Below are positions 28,883 to 37,911 of a stretch of DNA of 64,000 nucleotides, piece after piece. Every line of letters starts with the position of its first letter. Within the stretch, counting starts at the first letter, position 1. The DNA is from an uncultured Draconibacterium sp. (GTDB taxonomy: Bacteria > Bacteroidota > Bacteroidia > Bacteroidales > Prolixibacteraceae). The translations under genes were made by a program, and so were the position numbers. Where the stretch lies: contig NZ_OY781884.1 of NCBI RefSeq assembly GCF_963677155.1, positions 4,522,501 to 4,586,500 on the forward strand. Reading direction: 5' to 3'. The notes under the pieces are model-generated. The model was not told where the DNA came from. It did no database searches and saw only the letters and a list, made by a program, of their open reading frames with translations.

Positions 28883-28898
28883 GTTTACCGGTTTGAAA

Positions 28899-28971
28899 CA
28901 CCCGAAGGTAGTAAAAGACACTTTGGGGTTGGGAATACCTTTCGGAGTCTGGCAGACCCGAAAGTGTTTTT
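28899..28971. repeat. REP copy a (CRISPR-locus REP family)
   Basis: Two-hairpin repeat: ACACCCGAAGGT..CTTTGGGGT, then CTTTCGGAGTCT..AGACCCGAAAGTG. The second half folds as CTTTCGG-AGTCT / AGAC-CCGAAAG. The same unit recurs six more times (one half copy) up to 36.66 kb and nowhere else that I saw in the window. Confidence 0.8.
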
Positions 28972-28984
28972 AATACTTGGGCAT

Positions 28985-29075
28985 AAAAAAACTCCCACCG
29001 AAGCAGGAGTACAGGATTTCATATCCTTCGGCATATAGCCTTATTGTGATAAGATATAAAATTGAATTTCTATGT
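28985..29075 (-). ncRNA. tracrRNA of the type II-C CRISPR system
   Basis: On the minus strand an anti-repeat, TTCAATTTTATATC-TTAT-CACAAT (about 29068-29043), pairs with the first 24 bases of the CRISPR repeat except for one 4-base bulge. It is followed by AAGGCTATATGCCGAAGG, a short second stem region, and a terminator hairpin, ACTCCTGC-TTCG-GTGGGAGT, with a T-run. The CACAATAAGGC junction is the same as in known II-C tracrRNAs such as that of Neisseria. The RNA is divergent from cas9, whose start is about 110 bases away. The exact 5' end is not determined. Confidence 0.85.
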
Positions 29076-29185
29076 TTTTGAACAGGTGCTTTATAAAAGC
29101 AAGGCTAATATACTGTTTTTTTGTCAGAATCTGTTTATATTTAACAACATAACTCTGATTGTAACCTATTAAAAACGCATTCGAA

Positions 29186-32100
29186 ATGGCTAAAATTTTA
29201 GGACTCGACCTCGGAACAAACAGTGTTGGATGGGCTGTTGTGGATACTGAAAAACTCATCTCAGATTCGAAAGTTGAACAAGTAGAATCTATATTGGCAT
29301 GCGGTAGTCGTGTTTTCAAAGAGGGAGTAAATAAAAACTCTGCCGGAAAAGAAGTTTCGAAGAATGCTGCAAAAAGAATAGCTAGAGGAACACGTATTAA
29401 AAACAGACGTTTTAAAAGTAGAAGAAAAAGACTGATTTTAGAATTGAGTAAACTAGGAATGATGCCAACAGATAAGCATTATTCGTTTACCAAAAAAGAT
29501 AAAAAAAATCATACAAGAGATCTTTTTGAATTACGTAAAAGAGTTTTGGATGAAAAGCTACAGTTGGAAGAGATTGGGAGAATTTTTCTTCAAATAAATA
29601 ATCACCGCGGATTTAAAAGTAATAAGAAAGAAGATGCCTTAACCAAATCTAATCCGGATAAAGAAAAGGAGTTGGCTGGAGTAAAAGGTAGAATTAAAAA
29701 GCTTGAAAAACGCATTTCGGATTGTAACTGTAGAACCATAGGAGAATACTATTTTTATTTAATTGATAGAAACAAGGATTCCCATAATCCTAATGCCCCA
29801 AGACTTGAGCATGAGGATGATATGATAAGAGGAGAAGGGGCTTATACTTCAAGAAATTTATATGCAAAGGAGTTTGATACAATATGGAAAAAACAAAAAG
29901 AATATTATCCAGAGATTTTGACTGATGAAAACAGAGAGATTATTGAAGGAGAGTGTATTTTTTACCAACGAGACTTACGCTCGGCAAGGCATTTAAGAAA
30001 TCGTTGCCGCCTGGAGTACAAGGGATATAGATGGATAAATAGCGGAGGTGAAAAAGTCAAACAATATAACTACTTACCGTGTTGCCCTAAAAGTTCCTTC
30101 GAGTTTCAGGAATATCGGATTTGGGAACAACTAAATAAAATTCGATATACCAATACAGAGCATATCCACGAACCTCTTTCTCTAGAGCAAAAGCAAAAGT
30201 TGGCAGATAAATTAATGTACTGTGAAAAGCTAAGTTTAGCACAAGTTAAGAAAATTGCGTTGCTGAGTAGGGATACTAAGTTCAATGATGTGGACAAAGA
30301 ACTTAAAGGAAATGTGACACAGACGAGATTAATAAATGCATTGGGAAAAGATTTTTGGCTAAAGCATTCTGCTGTTGTCGAAGAAAGTTGTACGGCTTCA
30401 TATTCGAAGGTTCAATATCAGTTATGGCATAATATTGAGTTTTCGAAAGATAAGGAATGGTTGAAAGGGGATAACTATTTTTTAAATAATCGACATCGTT
30501 ACAATTCGCGTCAGGCAAACAGAGCTAATAGAAAATATGAATCACATCAAAATTGGTTGAATAGTATTAAGAATTTAGGTTTGACCAAAGGGCAATTGTG
30601 TGAATATTCAGAAACGACATTTGAACCCGGTTATGCCAGTCTTAGCCTGAAAGCCATTAGAAAACTATTACCTTACTTAAAAAATGGAGAAGATCCTGTT
30701 TCTGCTTCGTATAAGGTTTATGGAGATTACAGTTCTACAATTCAGAGCGCAGATACAGTATTAGAATTTAAGGTGCCTCAGTTATCGAATAATACTCTGA
30801 AAAATCCCGTAGTTGAAAAAGCAGTAAAAGAGGCTATAAAATTGGTAAATGCAATAATTGATAAATACGGGAAACCAGACATGATTAATCTTGAGATGAC
30901 TCGGGATTTGAAAATGCCCAAGGAGCATAGGGAGAATATCAGAAGACGAAACCAGGATAAAGATAAAGCAAGAGAAGAATATTCGGAGTTTTTAAGCAAA
31001 AGATTGTCTAGAAATATTGATAAAACCAGCCCCGAAATAAAAAAGTTTGAAATGTTTCTTCAGCTAAATTACACTACTGAAGGTTTCAATAATAATATTA
31101 AGGGACAAATTTCTGAATCAGAAATAAAAAGGTTTTTGGCTTTAAGAATTCCAACAAATAAAACAAAATATCATCTGTGGCTTGAATGTGACAGAAAGGA
31201 TCCGTATGAGGGGAGGCCGATCAACCTGGAAACTTTGTTTTCGTCTGATATTGAAATAGAACATATAATTCCGTATAGCATAAGCGGAGATGACTCATTT
31301 GCGAATAAAACCTTATCGTTTAAAAGTTTTAATGCCAAAAAAGGTAAGTTAACTCCGATGCAATACTTTGTAGACAAACCCGACCAACTTGATCTATTTA
31401 AAAAGAACATTAGTAATTTCCCAGACAATAAGAAAGACCGGTTTCTGTTGGAAGATGATAAAATTGAAGGTTTTAAGAACAGCCAATTAAATAGCACGTC
31501 GTATATTTCAACTGAGGTCAGAAAACACTTATTGCGTTCATATAAAAATGAAAATATAATTCTAACAAATGGAACAATGACTTCATTGGTAAGAACTCTT
31601 TTGGGATTTAATGGGATACTAAATAAGGCTGTTCGTGTGGAGGATTGTTATCGAAATATGGGCAAGGTTTGGGCGATTGTTGATGACTTTGATAATATAA
31701 CTGACTTTATACCAAGAAATGAAAATAAAGAACCGGAAAACACAAAAACAATTAAGGGGGTAATTAACCATTTTACATTTTTTCCATCAAAAAGTAGAAA
31801 TGATCACCGACATCATGCTGTAGATGCTCTTGTAACTGCAATTTTAAATAGAAAAATAAATACTTCAATTTTAAAATTGACAGAGGGTGTTGTTGTCGTG
31901 GAAACAGGAGAGTTCTTTCCCAAATTTTATACAAACGAAAAAGGAGAACATCGATTAACTAGAGAGGCGGTAGGTGATATAAAATCGATGCTTCAAGAAG
32001 AATTAAATCTTGTTGAAATGGATGATTTACTTCCAATCGCAAAAGAAAAAATTGAGTACCTTTTGGTTTCGTATCAAAATAGGAAACTGGTCACGTATCC

Positions 32101-33097
32101 TCGAAAGAAATTATTTGAACCCAATGGCCGACCTTTAAGAACCAAGGATGGCCGACATTTGCGAAGTGGAGGAATTTCAGAAAGGGCAGAGTTGCATGAA
32201 GCCAATTATTATGGGAAAACAAATGATTGTAGTGAAGGAGAATTTGTCCGTCGTGTTCCGCTTTCATCAATTACTCCAAAACAGGTCGATAATATAGTAG
32301 ATAAGGTTATAAAATGTATTGTACGAACCGATAGGGAAAAAGAAGAGGAATTAAATTCAAAATTAAAAGAACTTAATGCTAAAAGAACTAGAAGTTCAGA
32401 TGAAGAGGAATCAGAAATTGAAAAACAAATTGAGGAAACTTTGACAGCATTAAATCAACTATATAAATTGCCCAATAAAAATGGAGAAAAAGTGCCAATT
32501 AAAAAAGTACGGGTTAAGTTTAAAACCAGCACTGCACAGCCGCTTAAAAGTGAAAAAATTGTGGCTCAATTGACTCCAAATTACAGAAAGAGTATCGATA
32601 CAACAAAATATCAATATATCAAACCAGGTAATAATTATATGTATGTAATTTATGGGGATGCGGAAGGAGAGAGTAGGGATAAACATGTAGTTTCCTGGTT
32701 TGATAAAGCTCAAATTGATATTGAAAACAGACGCTTAAAAAAACAGGTAAAAGCGACTACACAGAAGCCTGAATTACTGCCTTACTATCCAATTAAAGAA
32801 TTACCAGTACTTTGTACTCTACAGCATAATGATATGGTTATTATGTATGACGAAACTCCAGAAGAGATTAATTGGGACGATGAAAAAGAACTTTTTAATC
32901 GTCTGTTTACGCTGGTAAAGTTTACCGAGGCTCAACTTTCATTTATGAGGCATAATGTTTCAGGAATAGATGCTGATAAAGGGCAGTCTGTTGTAAATAT
33001 TTTATCTGGAGAAGGACAGGTAAAAAGACCAACTGCAAATACTTTTAGAGGAATAAAAGTAACGATAAATGAACTTGGAGAAATTGAAGAATTTTGA
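29186..33097 (+). CDS. cas9: CRISPR-associated endonuclease Cas9 (type II-C)
   Basis: A 1303-residue RNA-guided nuclease cutting both strands of target DNA. RuvC-I is ILGLDLGTNSVGWA with D8. An arginine-rich bridge helix (KNAAKRIARGTRIKNRRFKS) follows. RuvC-II is INLEMTRDL with E570. The HNH domain has DIEIEHIIP with catalytic H693 and the NKTL..N..KKG part with N707 and N716. RuvC-III is HRHHAVDAL with H877 and D880. All active-site residues are present, so the enzyme should be functional. The C-terminal ~350 residues would recognise the PAM, which cannot be predicted here. The start at 29186 gives the usual MAKILGLDLG. No csn2 or cas4 is present, which supports II-C. Confidence 0.97.
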   Translation: MAKILGLDLGTNSVGWAVVDTEKLISDSKVEQVESILACGSRVFKEGVNKNSAGKEVSKNAAKRIARGTRIKNRRFKSRRKRLILELSKLGMMPTDKHYSFTKKDKKNHTRDLFELRKRVLDEKLQLEEIGRIFLQINNHRGFKSNKKEDALTKSNPDKEKELAGVKGRIKKLEKRISDCNCRTIGEYYFYLIDRNKDSHNPNAPRLEHEDDMIRGEGAYTSRNLYAKEFDTIWKKQKEYYPEILTDENREIIEGECIFYQRDLRSARHLRNRCRLEYKGYRWINSGGEKVKQYNYLPCCPKSSFEFQEYRIWEQLNKIRYTNTEHIHEPLSLEQKQKLADKLMYCEKLSLAQVKKIALLSRDTKFNDVDKELKGNVTQTRLINALGKDFWLKHSAVVEESCTASYSKVQYQLWHNIEFSKDKEWLKGDNYFLNNRHRYNSRQANRANRKYESHQNWLNSIKNLGLTKGQLCEYSETTFEPGYASLSLKAIRKLLPYLKNGEDPVSASYKVYGDYSSTIQSADTVLEFKVPQLSNNTLKNPVVEKAVKEAIKLVNAIIDKYGKPDMINLEMTRDLKMPKEHRENIRRRNQDKDKAREEYSEFLSKRLSRNIDKTSPEIKKFEMFLQLNYTTEGFNNNIKGQISESEIKRFLALRIPTNKTKYHLWLECDRKDPYEGRPINLETLFSSDIEIEHIIPYSISGDDSFANKTLSFKSFNAKKGKLTPMQYFVDKPDQLDLFKKNISNFPDNKKDRFLLEDDKIEGFKNSQLNSTSYISTEVRKHLLRSYKNENIILTNGTMTSLVRTLLGFNGILNKAVRVEDCYRNMGKVWAIVDDFDNITDFIPRNENKEPENTKTIKGVINHFTFFPSKSRNDHRHHAVDALVTAILNRKINTSILKLTEGVVVVETGEFFPKFYTNEKGEHRLTREAVGDIKSMLQEELNLVEMDDLLPIAKEKIEYLLVSYQNRKLVTYPRKKLFEPNGRPLRTKDGRHLRSGGISERAELHEANYYGKTNDCSEGEFVRRVPLSSITPKQVDNIVDKVIKCIVRTDREKEEELNSKLKELNAKRTRSSDEEESEIEKQIEETLTALNQLYKLPNKNGEKVPIKKVRVKFKTSTAQPLKSEKIVAQLTPNYRKSIDTTKYQYIKPGNNYMYVIYGDAEGESRDKHVVSWFDKAQIDIENRRLKKQVKATTQKPELLPYYPIKELPVLCTLQHNDMVIMYDETPEEINWDDEKELFNRLFTLVKFTEAQLSFMRHNVSGIDADKGQSVVNILSGEGQVKRPTANTFRGIKVTINELGEIEEF

Positions 33098-33120
33098 TCT
33101 CCTTTAATGAAATAATCTCC

Positions 33121-33153
33121 AATCCTCCAAGGCTCCCCAAACCTTGGAGGATT
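33121..33153. repeat. Perfect 12-bp stem-loop after cas9
   Basis: AATCCTCCAAGG and CCTTGGAGGATT with a 9-base loop, 24 bases after the cas9 stop. It lacks a T-run, so it may be a REP-like palindrome or an RNA stabiliser rather than a terminator. Confidence 0.65.
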
Positions 33154-33218
33154 AGAAATATAACCGAATAGAATAACCACAAAAACAACACATCATGCTA
33201 AAAACCAAAAAGAAACTA

Positions 33219-33390
33219 CCGGAAACCATCCGGTTTTCGCTCCAACCAACCGGAAATACGAAAAACCATCCGGAAAAGGCTTCCAACCACACGGGAAAGC
33301 TATAATCCCGCCCGGAATCGCAAAAAACGGCGCGGAAATTCCAAAAACCAGACGGAAATACAAAAAACCAGGCGGAAATGCCACACAACG
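33219..33390. repeat. Degenerate ~20-bp tandem repeat, (C)CGGAAATnCnAAAAACCA type
   Basis: CGGAAAT recurs at exact 20-bp steps (33333, 33353, 33373), CGGAAA at 33251 and 33271, and weaker units lie between, each followed by an A-run and ACCA. ORFs through it have no protein-like composition. The rest of the 33098-33621 gap holds nothing else recognisable. Confidence 0.6.
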
Positions 33391-33621
33391 ACGTTAAGTG
33401 CCATTTCCGTGGCGTATTTATCATTTCTGCCGGGATTCTGATAAAAGAAAACGTAAATCACCCGGAAAAATATTGTTTAACGACCCTGAACAGCCGAAGA
33501 ATTGATGGGTATTATTCAATGGTTTAATTACTATCGGTTTTTCTTCTTGTTCGCCCTTAAGCTGCCGGTAGTGCAGAATACGATGTTAATTTTTCAAAAA
33601 AAAACTCAAAAATCTTTTATT

Positions 33622-34278
33622 ATGAACATGTCAGATCTGACGACTGAAGAGATTATTTATGAATCAGGATTACGGATTAACAACAGTTTAAGCGATACTA
33701 AAGTGTTAAATGCAGTAGCTCCTTTGGGTTATACCGAGGGCAAATTAAACGAGGGAGCAAGCTTGCTTAACGAGGCAACAACCCTTGTTGAAACCCAGAA
33801 AAGTGAATATGGCGAGGTTGATGCCGCACAAGAAGCTTACGAAACACTCCGAAAGCAGGCGCACAAAAGTTATATGGCAATTCTGGCTATAAGTAAAATT
33901 GCATTTAAAAACGATGCAAAAGCAATTTCAACCCTCGATTTAACCGGACGACGAGCAACTACTTTAAGCGGATGGTTAAATCAAACCCGTAATTTTTATC
34001 ACGCTATTTTGGGTGACGAAAGGTGGAAGGCAGCCTTGGCTTCCTATGGACAAACCGAAGACATTTTAACTGCCCAATTAGCTGCTGTTGACACAGTGGC
34101 ACTAGCATCGGAAGCCAGAAAAAGAGAGATGGGCGATGCTCAGAATGCCACACAGGAACGCGACGAGAAACTGGAAGAGTTGCTTGATTGGGTTTCGGAT
34201 TATGAAGTTATTGCCCGTATTGCCCTGGCCGATAAACCTCAGTTGCTCGAAAAACTTGGTATTGTGGTGAAAGGATGA
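33622..34278 (+). CDS. Helical protein of unknown function inside the cas locus
   Basis: A 218-residue protein with the start taken at 33622 (MNMSDLTTEEIIYES). It looks almost entirely alpha-helical and acidic, with LNEGASLLNEATTLVETQKSEYG, a KSYMAILAISKIAFKND segment, TGRRATTLSGWLNQTRNFYHAIL and a C-terminal LLDWVSDYEVIARIALADKPQ. It has no signal peptide, membrane segment or nuclease motif. It lies between cas9 and cas1, in the same direction, with a REP at its 3' end. I have an impression of similar orphan proteins in other Bacteroidota, which would argue against a CRISPR role, but cannot check it. Confidence 0.65.
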   Translation: MNMSDLTTEEIIYESGLRINNSLSDTKVLNAVAPLGYTEGKLNEGASLLNEATTLVETQKSEYGEVDAAQEAYETLRKQAHKSYMAILAISKIAFKNDAKAISTLDLTGRRATTLSGWLNQTRNFYHAILGDERWKAALASYGQTEDILTAQLAAVDTVALASEARKREMGDAQNATQERDEKLEELLDWVSDYEVIARIALADKPQLLEKLGIVVKG

Positions 34279-34289
34279 TGTGTATATGG

Positions 34290-34379
34290 CACCCGAAGGT
34301 TTGAAAAAACGCTTCGGGGTCTTCTTGTCAAATAAATCCATTAATCAAACCTTTCGGCGTTTTCCAAACCCGAACGTTT
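34290..34379. repeat. REP copy b
   Basis: ACCCGAAGGT..GCTTCGGGGT, then CTTTCGGCGTTTTCCAAACCCGAACG. It has about 20 extra bases between the halves compared with copy a. It lies just upstream of the RAYT gene. Confidence 0.75.
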
Positions 34380-34392
34380 AAAGTAAAACAAG

Positions 34393-35064
34393 ATGAAAAC
34401 CACTCCACTCGAATACGGCTGGTTTTACCACATCTACAACCGCGGAATAAACGGCTGTAACCTGTTTCGCGAAAATGAGAATTATGAATATTTTCTGCAT
34501 TTGTACGATAAATATATTTCTCTGGTAGCCGAAACGTATGCCTGGGTGTTGATGCGAAATCATTTTCATTTGCTGGTTCAGGTAAAATTGGAAAAAGATA
34601 TTCCTTTTATGGGCGAGACACCCGAAGGTTTGAAAAACACTTCGGGGGCTGGAAAAAACCTTTCGGCGTCTTCCAGACCCGAAAGTGTTTTAAAAAAGTA
34701 TAAGCCAATAAATCAGTTTTCACATCTTTTTAACGCCTACACCAAAGCCATAAACAAACGATACCACCGCACAGGTAGCCTTTTTGAACACCCGTTCCGA
34801 AGAATAAAGGTTGAATCGGATATTCATCTGAAATATCTGGTTTACTACATTCATCACAATCCAATCCATCACGGCTTTTGCGATCATTACCTTGATTATC
34901 CGTGGAGCTCGTATCTAACAATTGTATCGCCAAAAGCTACAAAACTAAGTAGGGCAGAAGTGCTAAAGTGGTTTCGTGATAAATCGAATTTCGAGAAATT
35001 TCATTCGCAGGAACAGATACGAAAGTTTCAAGAATTGGATATTGATTTTGTGGGCGATGGATGA
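34393..35064 (+). CDS. REP-associated tyrosine transposase (RAYT, Y1/HUH family)
   Basis: A 223-residue single-strand DNA transposase-like protein of the IS200-related TnpA_REP group, which acts on REP hairpins. The HUH motif is MRNHFHLLVQV (about 55-65) and the tyrosine helix FNAYTKAINKRYHRTGSLFEHPFRRI contains candidate catalytic Tyr residues. LKYLVYYIHHNPIHHG and YPWSSY complete the family pattern. Between the two motifs lies an unusual ~25-residue stretch, TPEGLKNTSGAGKNLSASSR, encoded by a REP copy (34619-34694) that keeps the frame. REPs also flank the gene on both sides. The enzyme appears intact. Confidence 0.9.
   Translation: MKTTPLEYGWFYHIYNRGINGCNLFRENENYEYFLHLYDKYISLVAETYAWVLMRNHFHLLVQVKLEKDIPFMGETPEGLKNTSGAGKNLSASSRPESVLKKYKPINQFSHLFNAYTKAINKRYHRTGSLFEHPFRRIKVESDIHLKYLVYYIHHNPIHHGFCDHYLDYPWSSYLTIVSPKATKLSRAEVLKWFRDKSNFEKFHSQEQIRKFQELDIDFVGDG
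34619..34694. repeat. REP copy c, in frame inside the RAYT gene
   Basis: CACCCGAAGGTTTGAAAAAC..TTCGGGGG, then CTTTCGGCGTCTTCCAGACCCGAAAGTG, nearly identical to the intergenic copies. It adds TPEGLKNTSG...SSRPESVLKK to the transposase without a stop codon. Confidence 0.85.
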
Positions 35065-35080
35065 TCTTAATTTGTTTAAA

Positions 35081-35152
35081 CACCCGAAGGTCTGTAAGAC
35101 TCATAGGGGTATCTAAAAACCTTTCGGTGTCTAACAGCCCCGAAAGTGTTTG
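35081..35152. repeat. REP copy d
   Basis: CACCCGAAGGTCTGTAAGAC..ATAGGGGT, then CTTTCGGTGTCTAACAGCCCCGAAAGTG. It lies 16 bases after the RAYT stop codon. Confidence 0.8.
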
Positions 35153-35190
35153 AAAAAATTAGAAAATACAATATCCTTTTATGGGAATAA

Positions 35191-35264
35191 ACGCCCGAAG
35201 GTCTTCAAGACTCTTCGGGGGCGAGAAATAACCTTTCGCTGTCTAATAGACCCGGAAGCGTTTA
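35191..35264. repeat. REP copy e, with RAYT-derived flank
   Basis: CGCCCGAAGGTCTTCAAGAC..CTTCGGGGG, then CTTTCGCTGTCTAATAGACCCGGAAGCG. The preceding bases (35173-35184, TCCTTTTATGGG) match the RAYT coding sequence just before REP copy c. It lies 26 bases upstream of cas1. Confidence 0.75.
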
Positions 35265-35290
35265 ATAAAAACAAAAAACCAATTTGAACC

Positions 35291-36181
35291 ATGATAAAAC
35301 GTACGTTATTCATTTCCAACCCCTATTACCTCTCGTTAAAAAACAAACAATTGCAGGTGAGCGAGCGGGGAGGGATGGTGCTAAAAACCGCGCCGGTTGA
35401 AGACATTGGCTTTCTGGTGCTCGATCATCCGCAAATTTCATTTTCTATGAAACTGGTGGAAGAACTGAGCGAATACAACGTGGCAACCGTTTTTTGCGAC
35501 AGTAAACACATGCCATCGTCGATGTTGCTGCCGCTTGACGCTCACCATATTCAAAGTGAACTGTTCAGGGCACAGGTGGCTGCATCGGAACCACTAAAGA
35601 AAAACCTGTGGAAACAAACCATTGAGGCTAAAATTAAAAATCAGGCCCGTTTGCTCGATAAACTGGGCAAAAAAAGCCTTCAGCTAAAAAACATTGCGCA
35701 GGCAGTAAAAAGCGGCGACAGCGATAACCGCGAGGGTTTTGCGGCACGTATTTACTGGACTGCCTTGCTGGGAAAGGAGTTTATTCGCGATCGCTATGGC
35801 GAACCGCCCAACAATTTCCTGAATTATGGCTATATCCTTCTGCGCTCGGCTGTGGCACGTGCTTTGGCCGGGTCGGGATTACTGGCCACACTCGGCATTC
35901 ATCACCGAAACCGTTATAATGCCTTTTGCCTGGCCGACGATATTATGGAACCTTACCGCCCCTATGTTGATGAAATTGCTTACGATCTGGATGAAAAATA
36001 CCCCGGAACTTTTGCTCTGGAGAAGGAACATAAAGCCGAGCTTTTACAGCTTATGGCTACCGATGTGAAAATAGGGGAGAACAAACGCCCGCTGATGATT
36101 GCCCTGTCGCAAACCACGGCCTCGCTTTCTCGTTGCTTCAATGGCGAACAACGTAAAATCGATTATCCGATTTTTGGATGA
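35291..36181 (+). CDS. cas1: CRISPR-associated Cas1, type II
   Basis: A 296-residue integrase that, with Cas2, inserts new spacers. The N-terminal beta domain begins MIKRTLFISNPYYLSLKNKQL. The helical catalytic domain contains NREGFAARIYWTALLGKEF (metal-binding Glu), GIHHRNRYNAFCLADDIMEPYRPYVDEIAYD (His and Asp of the active site) and the usual C-terminal LSQTTASLSRCFNGEQRKIDYP. The length and sequence pattern fit type II Cas1. It is followed by cas2 across a REP copy. Confidence 0.95.
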   Translation: MIKRTLFISNPYYLSLKNKQLQVSERGGMVLKTAPVEDIGFLVLDHPQISFSMKLVEELSEYNVATVFCDSKHMPSSMLLPLDAHHIQSELFRAQVAASEPLKKNLWKQTIEAKIKNQARLLDKLGKKSLQLKNIAQAVKSGDSDNREGFAARIYWTALLGKEFIRDRYGEPPNNFLNYGYILLRSAVARALAGSGLLATLGIHHRNRYNAFCLADDIMEPYRPYVDEIAYDLDEKYPGTFALEKEHKAELLQLMATDVKIGENKRPLMIALSQTTASLSRCFNGEQRKIDYPIFG

Positions 36182-36190
36182 TAATAAAAA

Positions 36191-36267
36191 ACGCCCAAAG
36201 GTTTGAAAGACACTTTGGGGTGGAACATTACTAACCTTTTGGAGTCTATCAGACCCGAAAGTGTTTT
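36191..36267. repeat. REP copy f
   Basis: CGCCCAAAGGTTTGAAAGAC..CTTTGGGGT, then CTTTTGGAGTCTATCAGACCCGAAAGTG. It fills the cas1-cas2 gap. Confidence 0.8.
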
Positions 36268-36278
36268 AAAAGGGAAAT

Positions 36279-36617
36279 ATGCAACAAACTCGGCTAAATG
36301 CCTATCATATTATGTGGTTATTTGTTTTTTTCGACCTCCCGGTTACTACCAAAAAGGAGCGCCGCCTGGCAACCCGTTTTCGGAAAGATTTGATGAAAGA
36401 CGGTTTTAGTATGATGCAGTTTTCGGTATACAACCGCCATTGTGCCAGTAAAGAAAGTGCCGAAGTACACATAAAACGAATAAAAAGTTTTATTCCTGAA
36501 CATGGGCAGGTAAGTATCCTTACCGTTACCGATAAACAATACGGCAACATTGTTAATGTATGGGGAAATAAATCGAGCCCCTTACCCGAAGGCCCCAAAC
36601 AACTCGAAATGTTTTAG
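36279..36617 (+). CDS. cas2: CRISPR-associated Cas2, type II
   Basis: A 112-residue ferredoxin-fold partner of Cas1 in spacer acquisition. The N-terminus MQQTRLNAYHIMWLFVFFDLP includes the conserved metal-binding Asp (FFDLP); the upstream RLNAYHIMW block is typical of Bacteroidota type II Cas2, so the 36279 start is preferred to the internal Met. RRLATRFRKDLMKDGFSMMQFSVYNRHC and the C-terminal PKQLEMF match the family. It is the last cas gene before the array. Confidence 0.94.
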   Translation: MQQTRLNAYHIMWLFVFFDLPVTTKKERRLATRFRKDLMKDGFSMMQFSVYNRHCASKESAEVHIKRIKSFIPEHGQVSILTVTDKQYGNIVNVWGNKSSPLPEGPKQLEMF

Positions 36618-36629
36618 TCAATTCCAAAA

Positions 36630-36662
36630 ACCTTTCGGAGTCTAACAGACCCGAAAGAGTTT
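36630..36662. repeat. REP half copy g
   Basis: Only the second hairpin is present: CTTTCGGAGTCTAACAGACCCGAAAGAG. It lies 12 bases after cas2. Confidence 0.7.
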
Positions 36663-36844
36663 AATTTCGAATAGAAAATTGTACATTCGTAAACCGTTCT
36701 TTGATATTTTGATCCGAATATCAATTTTGCCAATTAGAATTAAAAAAAACGTGCATCATTCTGCTTCCCTGTCGGGAACAGGATATTATTCCCATTGTAT
36801 TTTTACCGGAAACACCAGTAAAAACAGGGCTAGTCCGCCGCTTG
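36663..36844 (+). promoter_or_regulatory. Putative CRISPR leader
   Basis: 182 bases between the last REP and the first repeat: AT-rich at the left with TTTGATATTTTGATC (36701-36715) and GAATATCAATTTTG, more GC-rich near the repeat. The leader is assigned to this side because the degenerate repeat is at the other end of the array. Confidence 0.5.
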
Positions 36845-37867
36845 GTTGTGGTTTGATGTAAAATTGAAAAGATATTCAACAAAAAAGACCATTGAAGCCG
36901 AAGCACAGGCGTTGTGGTTTGATGTAAAATTGAAAAGATATTCAACGTTTTATCATTCACGGGAAGTGTTCCTGTTGTTGTGGTTTGATGTAAAATTGAA
37001 AAGATATTCAACATAACCCTTGTTTTTATCAGCACCAGTAGTGTTGTGGTTTGATGTAAAATTGAAAAGATATTCAACCATATGATCCCGTTGAAATTAA
37101 AGTAGATGTTGTGGTTTGATGTAAAATTGAAAAGATATTCAACCAACCCTAGAAAGGTTAGTAGTGTCCAAAAGTTGTGGTTTGATGTAAAATTGAAAAG
37201 ATATTCAACGTTCATCATCCAAAGGATGAGATTCAGAAGGTTGTGGTTTGATGTAAAATTGAAAAGATATTCAACCGCAACCGTGGGGACATGCCAACCA
37301 ACATTGTTGTGGTTTGATGTAAAATTGAAAAGATATTCAACTTTTCAAAAGTCGTTACGCAGCGAGCTAAAGTTGTGGTTTGATGTAAAATTGAAAAGAT
37401 ATTCAACCCTGGGCCAGTACTTGCTTATCGCGTGTGCGTTGTGGTTTGATGTAAAATTGAAAAGATATTCAACGATTACCAAGTTGTGTGCGGCTGTACA
37501 CTTGTTGTGGTTTGATGTAAAATTGAAAAGATATTCAACTTGATAAGTGTGTAGGATACTGCCCACACTGTTGTGGTTTGATGTAAAATTGAAAAGATAT
37601 TCAACGCACCTAAGTCCGTCTCTAAACCCGATGTGGTTGTGGTTTGATGTAAAATTGAAAAGATATTCAACCATATACAAATTAAGTGCGCTGGCCGATT
37701 AGTTGTGGTTTGATGTAAAATTGAAAAGATATTCAACCTTGTTTGCTTTTCGCCTTTACAATATTTGTTGTGGTTTGATGTAAAATTGAAAAGATATTCA
37801 ACGTAACAAAATCATTTGTTCCTCCTTTTATGTTGTGGTTTGATGTAAAATTGAAAAGATCAGTAAC
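36845..37867 (+). CRISPR. CRISPR array, 16 repeats and 15 spacers, type II-C
   Basis: The 36-base repeat starts GTTGTGGTTTGATGTAAAAT and ends GAAAAGATATTCAAC. Fifteen copies are identical and the sixteenth (37832-37867) has a degenerate 3' end (CAGTAAC instead of ATTCAAC). Spacers are 29-30 bases and all different; none was seen to match another part of the window. The degenerate terminal repeat marks the old end, so new spacers would enter beside cas2. The first 24 bases of the repeat pair with the anti-repeat at 29043-29068. Confidence 0.98.
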
Positions 37868-37874
37868 AGACTCA

Positions 37875-37911
37875 GACCCTGAAGGTTTCCAAAACCTTCA
37901 AGGTTTGGGTC
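37875..37911. repeat. Palindrome between array and tsaC-like gene
   Basis: GACCCTGAAGGTTT / AAACCTTCAAGG..GGGTC forms a hairpin, with inner stem CTGAAGGTTT/AAACCTTCAAG. It lies just past the stop codon of the minus-strand gene and may act as its terminator or be another repeat family. Confidence 0.55.

Follow-up and report, generated by a model that had tools for sequence, protein, structure and literature searches.

REP-associated tyrosine transposases (RAYTs) have been called domesticated transposases. The E. coli enzyme TnpAREP is reported to recognise its own repetitive extragenic palindrome (REP) in single-stranded form and, in vitro, to cleave and recombine it (PMC8266576), TnpAREP enzymes of subclass 2.4 are abundant in Bacteroidetes and have REPs both flanking the gene and inserted in frame between HuH motif and tyrosine (PMC6006769), a model paper considers population sizes of 91–323 REP doublets (REPINs) in each genome to be relevant (PMC8049555), and Mu transposases linked to clustered regularly interspaced short palindromic repeats (CRISPR) were termed CasMu (PMC10910872). 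Here, we analysed a stretch of 64,000 nucleotides (the window) of an uncultured Draconibacterium sp. (contig NZ_OY781884.1), in which a RAYT gene and its REPs are embedded in a CRISPR-Cas locus. This locus is assigned to type II-C by its cas9, cas1 and cas2 genes, a trans-activating CRISPR RNA (tracrRNA) and an array. We consider, with a probability of roughly 0.58, that its cas operon houses a REPtron consisting of one RAYT and cognate REPINs, which is mainly a tolerated resident that has found a good home in a defence operon.

The locus is organised in the order 588-aa open reading frame (ORF), tracrRNA (minus strand), cas9, PQLLE-family gene, RAYT, cas1, cas2 and array. An earlier note on this DNA had described six full REPs, one half REP and the RAYT gene at the cas genes, and this was borne out by a covariance model and by pattern searches. 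Each full element comprises two hairpins in inverted arrangement and is hence a REPIN; six full copies and one half copy lie at 28895–36665, all on the plus strand as are cas9, RAYT, cas1 and cas2. The notion that they fill gaps holds for most of them: copy 2 (34286–34384) ends 8 nt upstream of the RAYT start codon, copies 4 (35077–35154, covariance model) and 5 (35188–35266) share the gap between RAYT and cas1 with the end of the latter 24 nt upstream of the cas1 start, copy 6 (36188–36269) occupies the gap between cas1 and cas2 and ends 9 nt upstream of the cas2 start, and the half copy (about 36623–36665), a right hairpin only, lies between cas2 and the array leader. It does not hold for copy 3 (34615–34693), which is located in frame within the RAYT ORF and codes for residues 75–101. 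Copy 1 (28895–28972), recognised by the covariance model and by its two-hairpin folding, is situated beyond the end of the minus-strand tracrRNA and not between tracrRNA and cas9 as had been proposed; the stretch from cas9 to the next gene contains no REPIN, and the PQLLE-family gene (33625–34278) had been overlooked at this position.

Two core patterns (≤3 mismatches) matched the window five and four times, always inside the locus, which confirms that the family occurs nowhere else in the 64 kb; 100 dinucleotide shuffles gave no match. The folding energies of the hairpins correspond to z values of −2.1 to −6.5, with 0 to 7 of 200 shuffles folding equally well. The confinement extends to the complete genome, a single contig of 5,268,975 bases: the right-half pattern (≤3 mismatches) was found at six places, all of them at the cas locus, the reversed-pattern control at none, and a shorter pattern had seven of seven places at the cas locus. 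The covariance model, built from the sense strand of the six full window copies, added one diverged full copy (2709398–2709488) and a non-significant match elsewhere (E 6.2); as the scoring covered only 150 of 1,555 initial candidates, weak copies could have escaped. These searches reveal enrichment at the locus and rule out an even spread of REPs over the genome, which would have spoken against the earlier note. The probability that six of seven full copies fall within 7.8 kb by chance is about 7e-17, calculated for a stretch picked after the fact. The RAYT gene is present as a single copy, and two weak RAYT matches in the same genome proved to be neighbouring REPINs aligned to the residues coded by REPIN 3.

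The RAYT gene (34393–35064, plus strand) encodes a TnpAREP-like HuH/Tyr enzyme of 223 amino acids. Its match to NCBIfam REP_Tyr_transpos (NF047646) remained below the cut-off (48.1 bits versus 80) and covered profile positions 82–146 only, i.e. the C-terminal part. A profile of 24 relatives had one match in the PDB, namely E. coli TnpAREP (4er8, E 2e-7). The AlphaFold2 model, with a mean predicted local distance difference test (pLDDT) value of 83, also matched 4er8 best, above the IS200/IS608 TnpA proteins, and this was the sole PDB fold match at E ≤ 0.001, with template modelling (TM) scores of 0.70 by target and 0.53 by query. Across 24 diverse proteins, H57, H59 and N156 are invariant and Y152 occurs in no less than 90%; Y152 and N156 align with Y115, the catalytic tyrosine, and N119 of 4er8. 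The only internal segment with pLDDT below 50, residues 76–99, overlaps the residues coded by REPIN 3, and in the model this element codes for a peripheral loop between HuH and Tyr that is predicted to be disordered. Judged by its features and its taxon rather than by the published subclass tree, the protein resembles TnpAREP subclass 2.4 (RAYT group 4). Median ratios of non-synonymous to synonymous substitution rates (dN/dS) among seven close loci were 0.087 for RAYT (finite dS in 18 of 21 pairs), 0.044 for cas1, 0.039 for cas2 and 0.13 for the PQLLE-family gene, and the RAYT is under purifying selection. Neither the RAYT nor the PQLLE protein was matched by PADLOC at E ≤ 0.001.

The proposal that the RAYT uses the cas locus as its home is supported by related genomes and generalises to them. 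Among 149 genomes including the own one, the shorter REPIN pattern identified 44 places in 13 genomes (denoted by G, loci by L), 34 of which map to type II cas loci on the stretches mapped: seven each in G000 and G008, five in G009, four in G060, three each in G064 and G051, and one each in G003, G024, G029, G034 and G039. The copies are clustered; all seven in G008 and all five in G009 lie in one 8 kb stretch per genome and on one strand. A RAYT directly precedes cas1 on the same strand at 28 of 51 type II cas1 loci of the relatives (52 matches minus a weak one, G060:C328), where about 0.1 such cases are expected by chance if two RAYTs per genome are assumed; at two further loci a RAYT lies beyond cas9, and at 21, a few of them contig-edge fragments, none was visible. 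Identity of these RAYTs to that of the window goes down to about 30%. Across Bacteroidia, type II cas1 matches were obtained in 84 of 395 genomes, and 16 of the 78 searched for RAYT have one within about 150 bases of cas1, always on the same strand (17 of 17 such RAYTs); in four of these genomes it is on the downstream side, and G155 has one on each side of cas1. Less clear are G194 and G351 (same strand, 1.3 kb) and G341 (weak match, opposite strand, about 0.4 kb).

The converse view, from RAYT to cas, sets the scale of this association. The 395 Bacteroidia genomes had been selected regardless of their cas genes, and 69 of them yielded 96 RAYT places (E ≤ 1e-30). Of the best 52, 11 adjoin a type II cas1 and one lies beyond the cas9 of a type II locus; these twelve are roughly a thousand-fold more than the 0.01 expected from a simple density estimate. 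The other 40 have neither a queried cas gene nor an array in the surrounding 6 kb or so, as far as the contig extends, though unqueried cas types could escape. The RAYT is therefore not a CRISPR-only gene. It is repeatedly encoded inside cas operons and does not reside mainly at CRISPR loci; only a minority of the family is linked to CRISPR, though far more than by chance.

This linkage is not restricted to type II systems. Eighteen high-scoring RAYT loci of relatives without type II cas1 comprised seven at type I-B loci, one at a VI-B locus and ten not visibly linked to CRISPR, the neighbours of most of these ten having been sampled. The I-B loci (L142, L143, L148, L152, L153, L154 and L157) contain cas8b, cas7, cas5 and cas3 or, in L153, cas1b; the RAYT is a few to about 190 bases from cas8b in four of them and about 0.9 and 1.4 kb in two, and 1 kb from cas1b in L153. 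The RAYT of L145 has Cas13b, an array and also a PQLLE gene in its neighbourhood. On a tree of 112 RAYTs, type II linkage required 13 changes against a mean of 36 after shuffling, and well-supported branches force eight or more of them; any CRISPR linkage required 14 changes and I-B linkage one; the bootstrap was not fully settled, and as rows were partly chosen for cas linkage, ancestral states are unreadable. Judged from this tree, homologous RAYTs have joined or left CRISPR loci many times.

Some RAYT loci of other genomes showed further peculiarities. In L146 (873–6913), the RAYT is followed by two large WD40-repeat genes. L059 of G004, a genome without type II cas1 match, contains RAYT copies, two of them with in-frame REPINs of the window family. 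Cyanobacterial RAYT relatives (L053 9373–10760, L055 9273–11075 and L054 8971–9965) are accompanied by rows of inverted-repeat units about 83–102 nt apart, which look like a REPtron with amplified REPs.

Other lineages possess different palindromes in the same slots, namely before RAYT, within RAYT, before cas1 and before cas2, and these palindromes are alike within many loci and unlike between lineages. Those within RAYT are mostly found 10–37 codons past HuH, with L115 and L138 as exceptions, and those before cas1 or cas2 mostly at a distance of 9–32 nt, with two at 54–55. Such other families, too, are concentrated at cas loci, where the fraction of their places was 7/23 in G006, 4/5 in G003, 6–7/12 in G024, 5/15 in G029, 4/9 in G031 and 4/5 in G043; the palindrome CCTTCAAGG is found elsewhere in genomes as well, and also in genomes without such a RAYT match (G030, G034). 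The comparison of cas loci with and without RAYT, which the earlier note had envisaged, showed such families to be commoner where a RAYT is present (17 of 29 versus 4 of 23 loci, p 0.004; in a second sample 7 of 16 versus 1 of 20, p 0.012). These p values are optimistic owing to phylogenetic dependence, and the second sample contains 20 RAYT-free loci that were hand-picked from those without RAYT match; the single-hairpin measure, which scores the two-hairpin family of the window as absent, understates the counts at RAYT-bearing loci. A strict rule is contradicted by L105, L106, L128 and L186, which have a family and no RAYT at cas1, L106 having one beyond cas9. Palindromes upstream of cas1 were present at 10 of 29 loci with RAYT versus 1 of 20 without, and upstream of cas2 at 11 of 29 versus 1 of 20, whereas downstream of cas2 they were equally common (16 of 29 versus 11 of 20) and many had T-runs; these counts, based on the single-hairpin measure too, exclude loci without cas2 match and six others that were duplicates, fragments or at contig edges. 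Within the RAYT ORF, a palindrome was found in 39 of 55 CRISPR-linked and 21 of 57 unlinked genes (p 3e-4). As predicted for a REPtron, 47 of 57 RAYTs outside CRISPR loci also have palindromes; local spread around the RAYT is general, and the special feature is where the RAYT lives.

RAYT-free relatives with the same REPs, which the earlier note regarded as evidence against its proposal, were represented by one genome, G034. Its locus has no RAYT, retains the cas genes and the array, and carries a right-half hairpin of the window family after cas2 and a weaker match between cas1 and cas2. A single palindrome occupies the junction between the PQLLE gene and cas1, the left flank resembling the PQLLE-RAYT and the right flank the RAYT-cas1 junction of relatives. 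Such a junction would be left if the segment between two REPs were deleted, but would also fit a site that has not yet received an insertion; loss inside a RAYT-bearing clade is favoured by the nearness of G034 to RAYT-bearing kin (its cas1 is 95% identical to that of G024).

The RAYT probably acts on its own REPIN, as suggested by its homology to E. coli TnpAREP. By analogy with that enzyme, it would cleave and rejoin REP hairpins in single-stranded DNA. New copies would land mostly nearby and persist where they are least harmful, that is, in gene junctions and in the RAYT loop, and a RAYT in the operon would be expressed and inherited together with the cas genes. The local scatter of copies, the residence on the same strand and the in-frame loop insertion fit a REPtron living in the operon.

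Several observations weigh against this interpretation. Ten of the 44 REPIN places in relatives have no visible type II cas locus: two in G004, each within a RAYT gene, one in G060 at a contig end adjoining CRISPR-like repeats, one in G039 and four in G052 without type II cas gene in the stretches examined (the fourth G052 place is about 14 kb from its cas1, beyond the examined stretch), and two, from G039 and G064, on contigs outside the mapped set. GT[AG]G occurs once each in copies 1 and 6, neither time, by our reading, at a hairpin foot, and is absent from the other five elements, so that REP recognition may differ from that of characterised TnpAREPs. REP kin far from the RAYT were modestly denser if the RAYT was CRISPR-linked (1.21 versus 0.36 per 10 kb; Mann-Whitney U p 0.046, Fisher p 0.12); in a set whose linkage labels were partly wrong, the densities did not differ. 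Close relatives keep the same palindrome slots despite sequence turnover, which suggests constraint, and no transposition event and no target duplication came to light. A mere guest would need neither purifying selection nor placement on the same strand nor residence at cas1 time and again. Residence alone leaves the preference for cas loci, above all for cas1, unexplained, and for this reason a role in adaptation is retained as the foremost alternative.

According to this alternative, the RAYT is a recruited adaptation accessory, a HuH nuclease-ligase co-expressed with Cas1-Cas2, which prepares single-stranded or hairpin DNA to be captured or uses the REPs near operon and leader to guide or protect integration. 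In its wider form, group-4 RAYTs would be CRISPR accessory enzymes recruited recurrently in II-C, I-B and VI-B systems of Bacteroidia, joining spacer acquisition or array upkeep together with the REP hairpins at junctions and leader. The many changes of linkage, mostly at cas1, agree with it, as do the cas1-strand placement of all adjacent RAYTs (28 of 28 in relatives and all 17 class-wide), the selection on the gene with its catalytic residues kept, and the occurrence at I-B and VI-B loci. However, 23 of the 51 type II loci manage without an adjacent RAYT, G034 retains cas genes and array without it, and 40 of the 52 class-wide RAYTs showed no queried cas gene. Furthermore, wherever an I-B stretch includes cas8b, the RAYT is upstream of this gene, and G341, G194 and G351 depart from the usual strand or distance. 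Both the narrow and the wide form of this explanation are rather unlikely.

Less probable still is that the REP hairpins regulate the cas transcripts by differential stability, attenuation or translation control, with the RAYT as a binding protein that also regulates itself; the earlier note had raised effects of the hairpins on cas transcripts or spacer uptake as its second possibility. The short distances between element ends and the starts of RAYT, cas1 and cas2, the use of the same slots by other families and the direction of the copies, 46 of 49 of which point along the operon, would suit such a function. However, the uniform direction is explained by shared descent of the slots, and the strand bias of wobble pairs is weak (26 G.T versus 13 A.C, with a model built on the sense strand). 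In some other lineages palindromes occur in both orientations, and 19 of 23 loci without RAYT lack such a family.

Defence loci are often exchanged, and clustering of REPs at one locus could be the footprint of a transfer of the whole cas-RAYT-REP locus from a REP-rich donor, but this is very improbable, as the same gene order is found in same-genus relatives and none of the 149 related genomes is such a donor, their largest count being seven, at a cas locus. It is just as hard to believe that the hairpins have no relation to the RAYT and are terminators or palindromes of an ordinary kind: this suits those after cas2, but not those upstream of cas1 and cas2, which track the RAYT, those inside the RAYT ORF, or the differences between lineages combined with likeness within a locus.

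The residence of a REPtron in the cas operon thus remains the preferred interpretation, and the other components of the locus are those of a type II system. The predicted tracrRNA (28980–29075, minus strand) has an anti-repeat (duplex −25 kcal/mol), hairpins and a T-run end; Rfam gave no match for this region at E ≤ 0.1. cas9 (29186–33097, 1303 aa; TIGR01865, 518 bits), cas1 (35291–36181; type II, TIGR03639, 298 bits) and cas2 (36279–36617; TIGR01573, 71 bits) are followed by an array of 16 repeats of 36 nt, the last one degenerate (36845–37867, plus strand). Two more strong palindromes of different, terminator-like sequence are located after cas9 (33115–33159) and after the array (37869–37911). 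cas9 was swapped among the window locus, L043, L057, L058 and L064–L067: many pairs are only 28–39% identical, whereas cas1 is 83–94% and cas2 85–97% identical and the CRISPR repeats are nearly equal. In front of their present cas9, G034 and G024 retain what seems to be the 5' end of an earlier cas9 gene. In L043 (4631–8688) of Draconibacterium orientale, cas9 extends over three overlapping ORFs and may thus be broken.

The PQLLE-family gene (plus strand; NF052641) separates cas9 from RAYT in most of the close relatives, and the genomes carry further copies at other places. The model of its product is all-helical, with long helices (pLDDT 94.8), and had no PDB fold match at E ≤ 0.001. Matches in 35 of 149 genomes, several with more than one, rule it out as an obligate partner of the RAYT.

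With regard to known systems, the in-frame and flanking REPs and the abundance in Bacteroidetes are already published, while literature searches did not bring up the recurrent CRISPR linkage; we recognised no report of a RAYT in cas loci, and supplements, which were not covered, may contain a mention. The main text of an article on structured RNAs in CRISPR operons (PMC9067536) contains neither 'transposase' nor 'repetitive extragenic'. Among CRISPR-linked gene modules (PMC10910872), the CasMu proteins are DDE enzymes, the main text does not contain 'HUH', and in the part accessible no such enzyme is named in II-C. Compared with TnpAREP subclass 2.4 as presented by Quentin et al. 2018 (main text of PMC6006769, where 'CRISPR' does not occur), the window RAYT shares HuH, Tyr, flanking and in-frame REPs and the variable loop, and differs in that its hairpins have no GT[AG]G foot, its REPs are confined to the cas locus and its gene is found in cas operons. 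The repeated same-strand link of RAYT and cas1 provides a concrete context for asking about a host role of RAYTs and ties REP biology to CRISPR adaptation. With the REPtron of E. coli TnpAREP (PMC8266576; PDB 4er8) the locus shares two inverted hairpins, a single RAYT and the protein fold. In contrast to the REPIN numbers considered in the model paper (PMC8049555), the family is not dispersed at high copy number, as its genome has seven full copies with six at one locus; even with the RAYT as a mere guest, the confined REPs in this cas operon represent a compact and testable REPtron of few copies.

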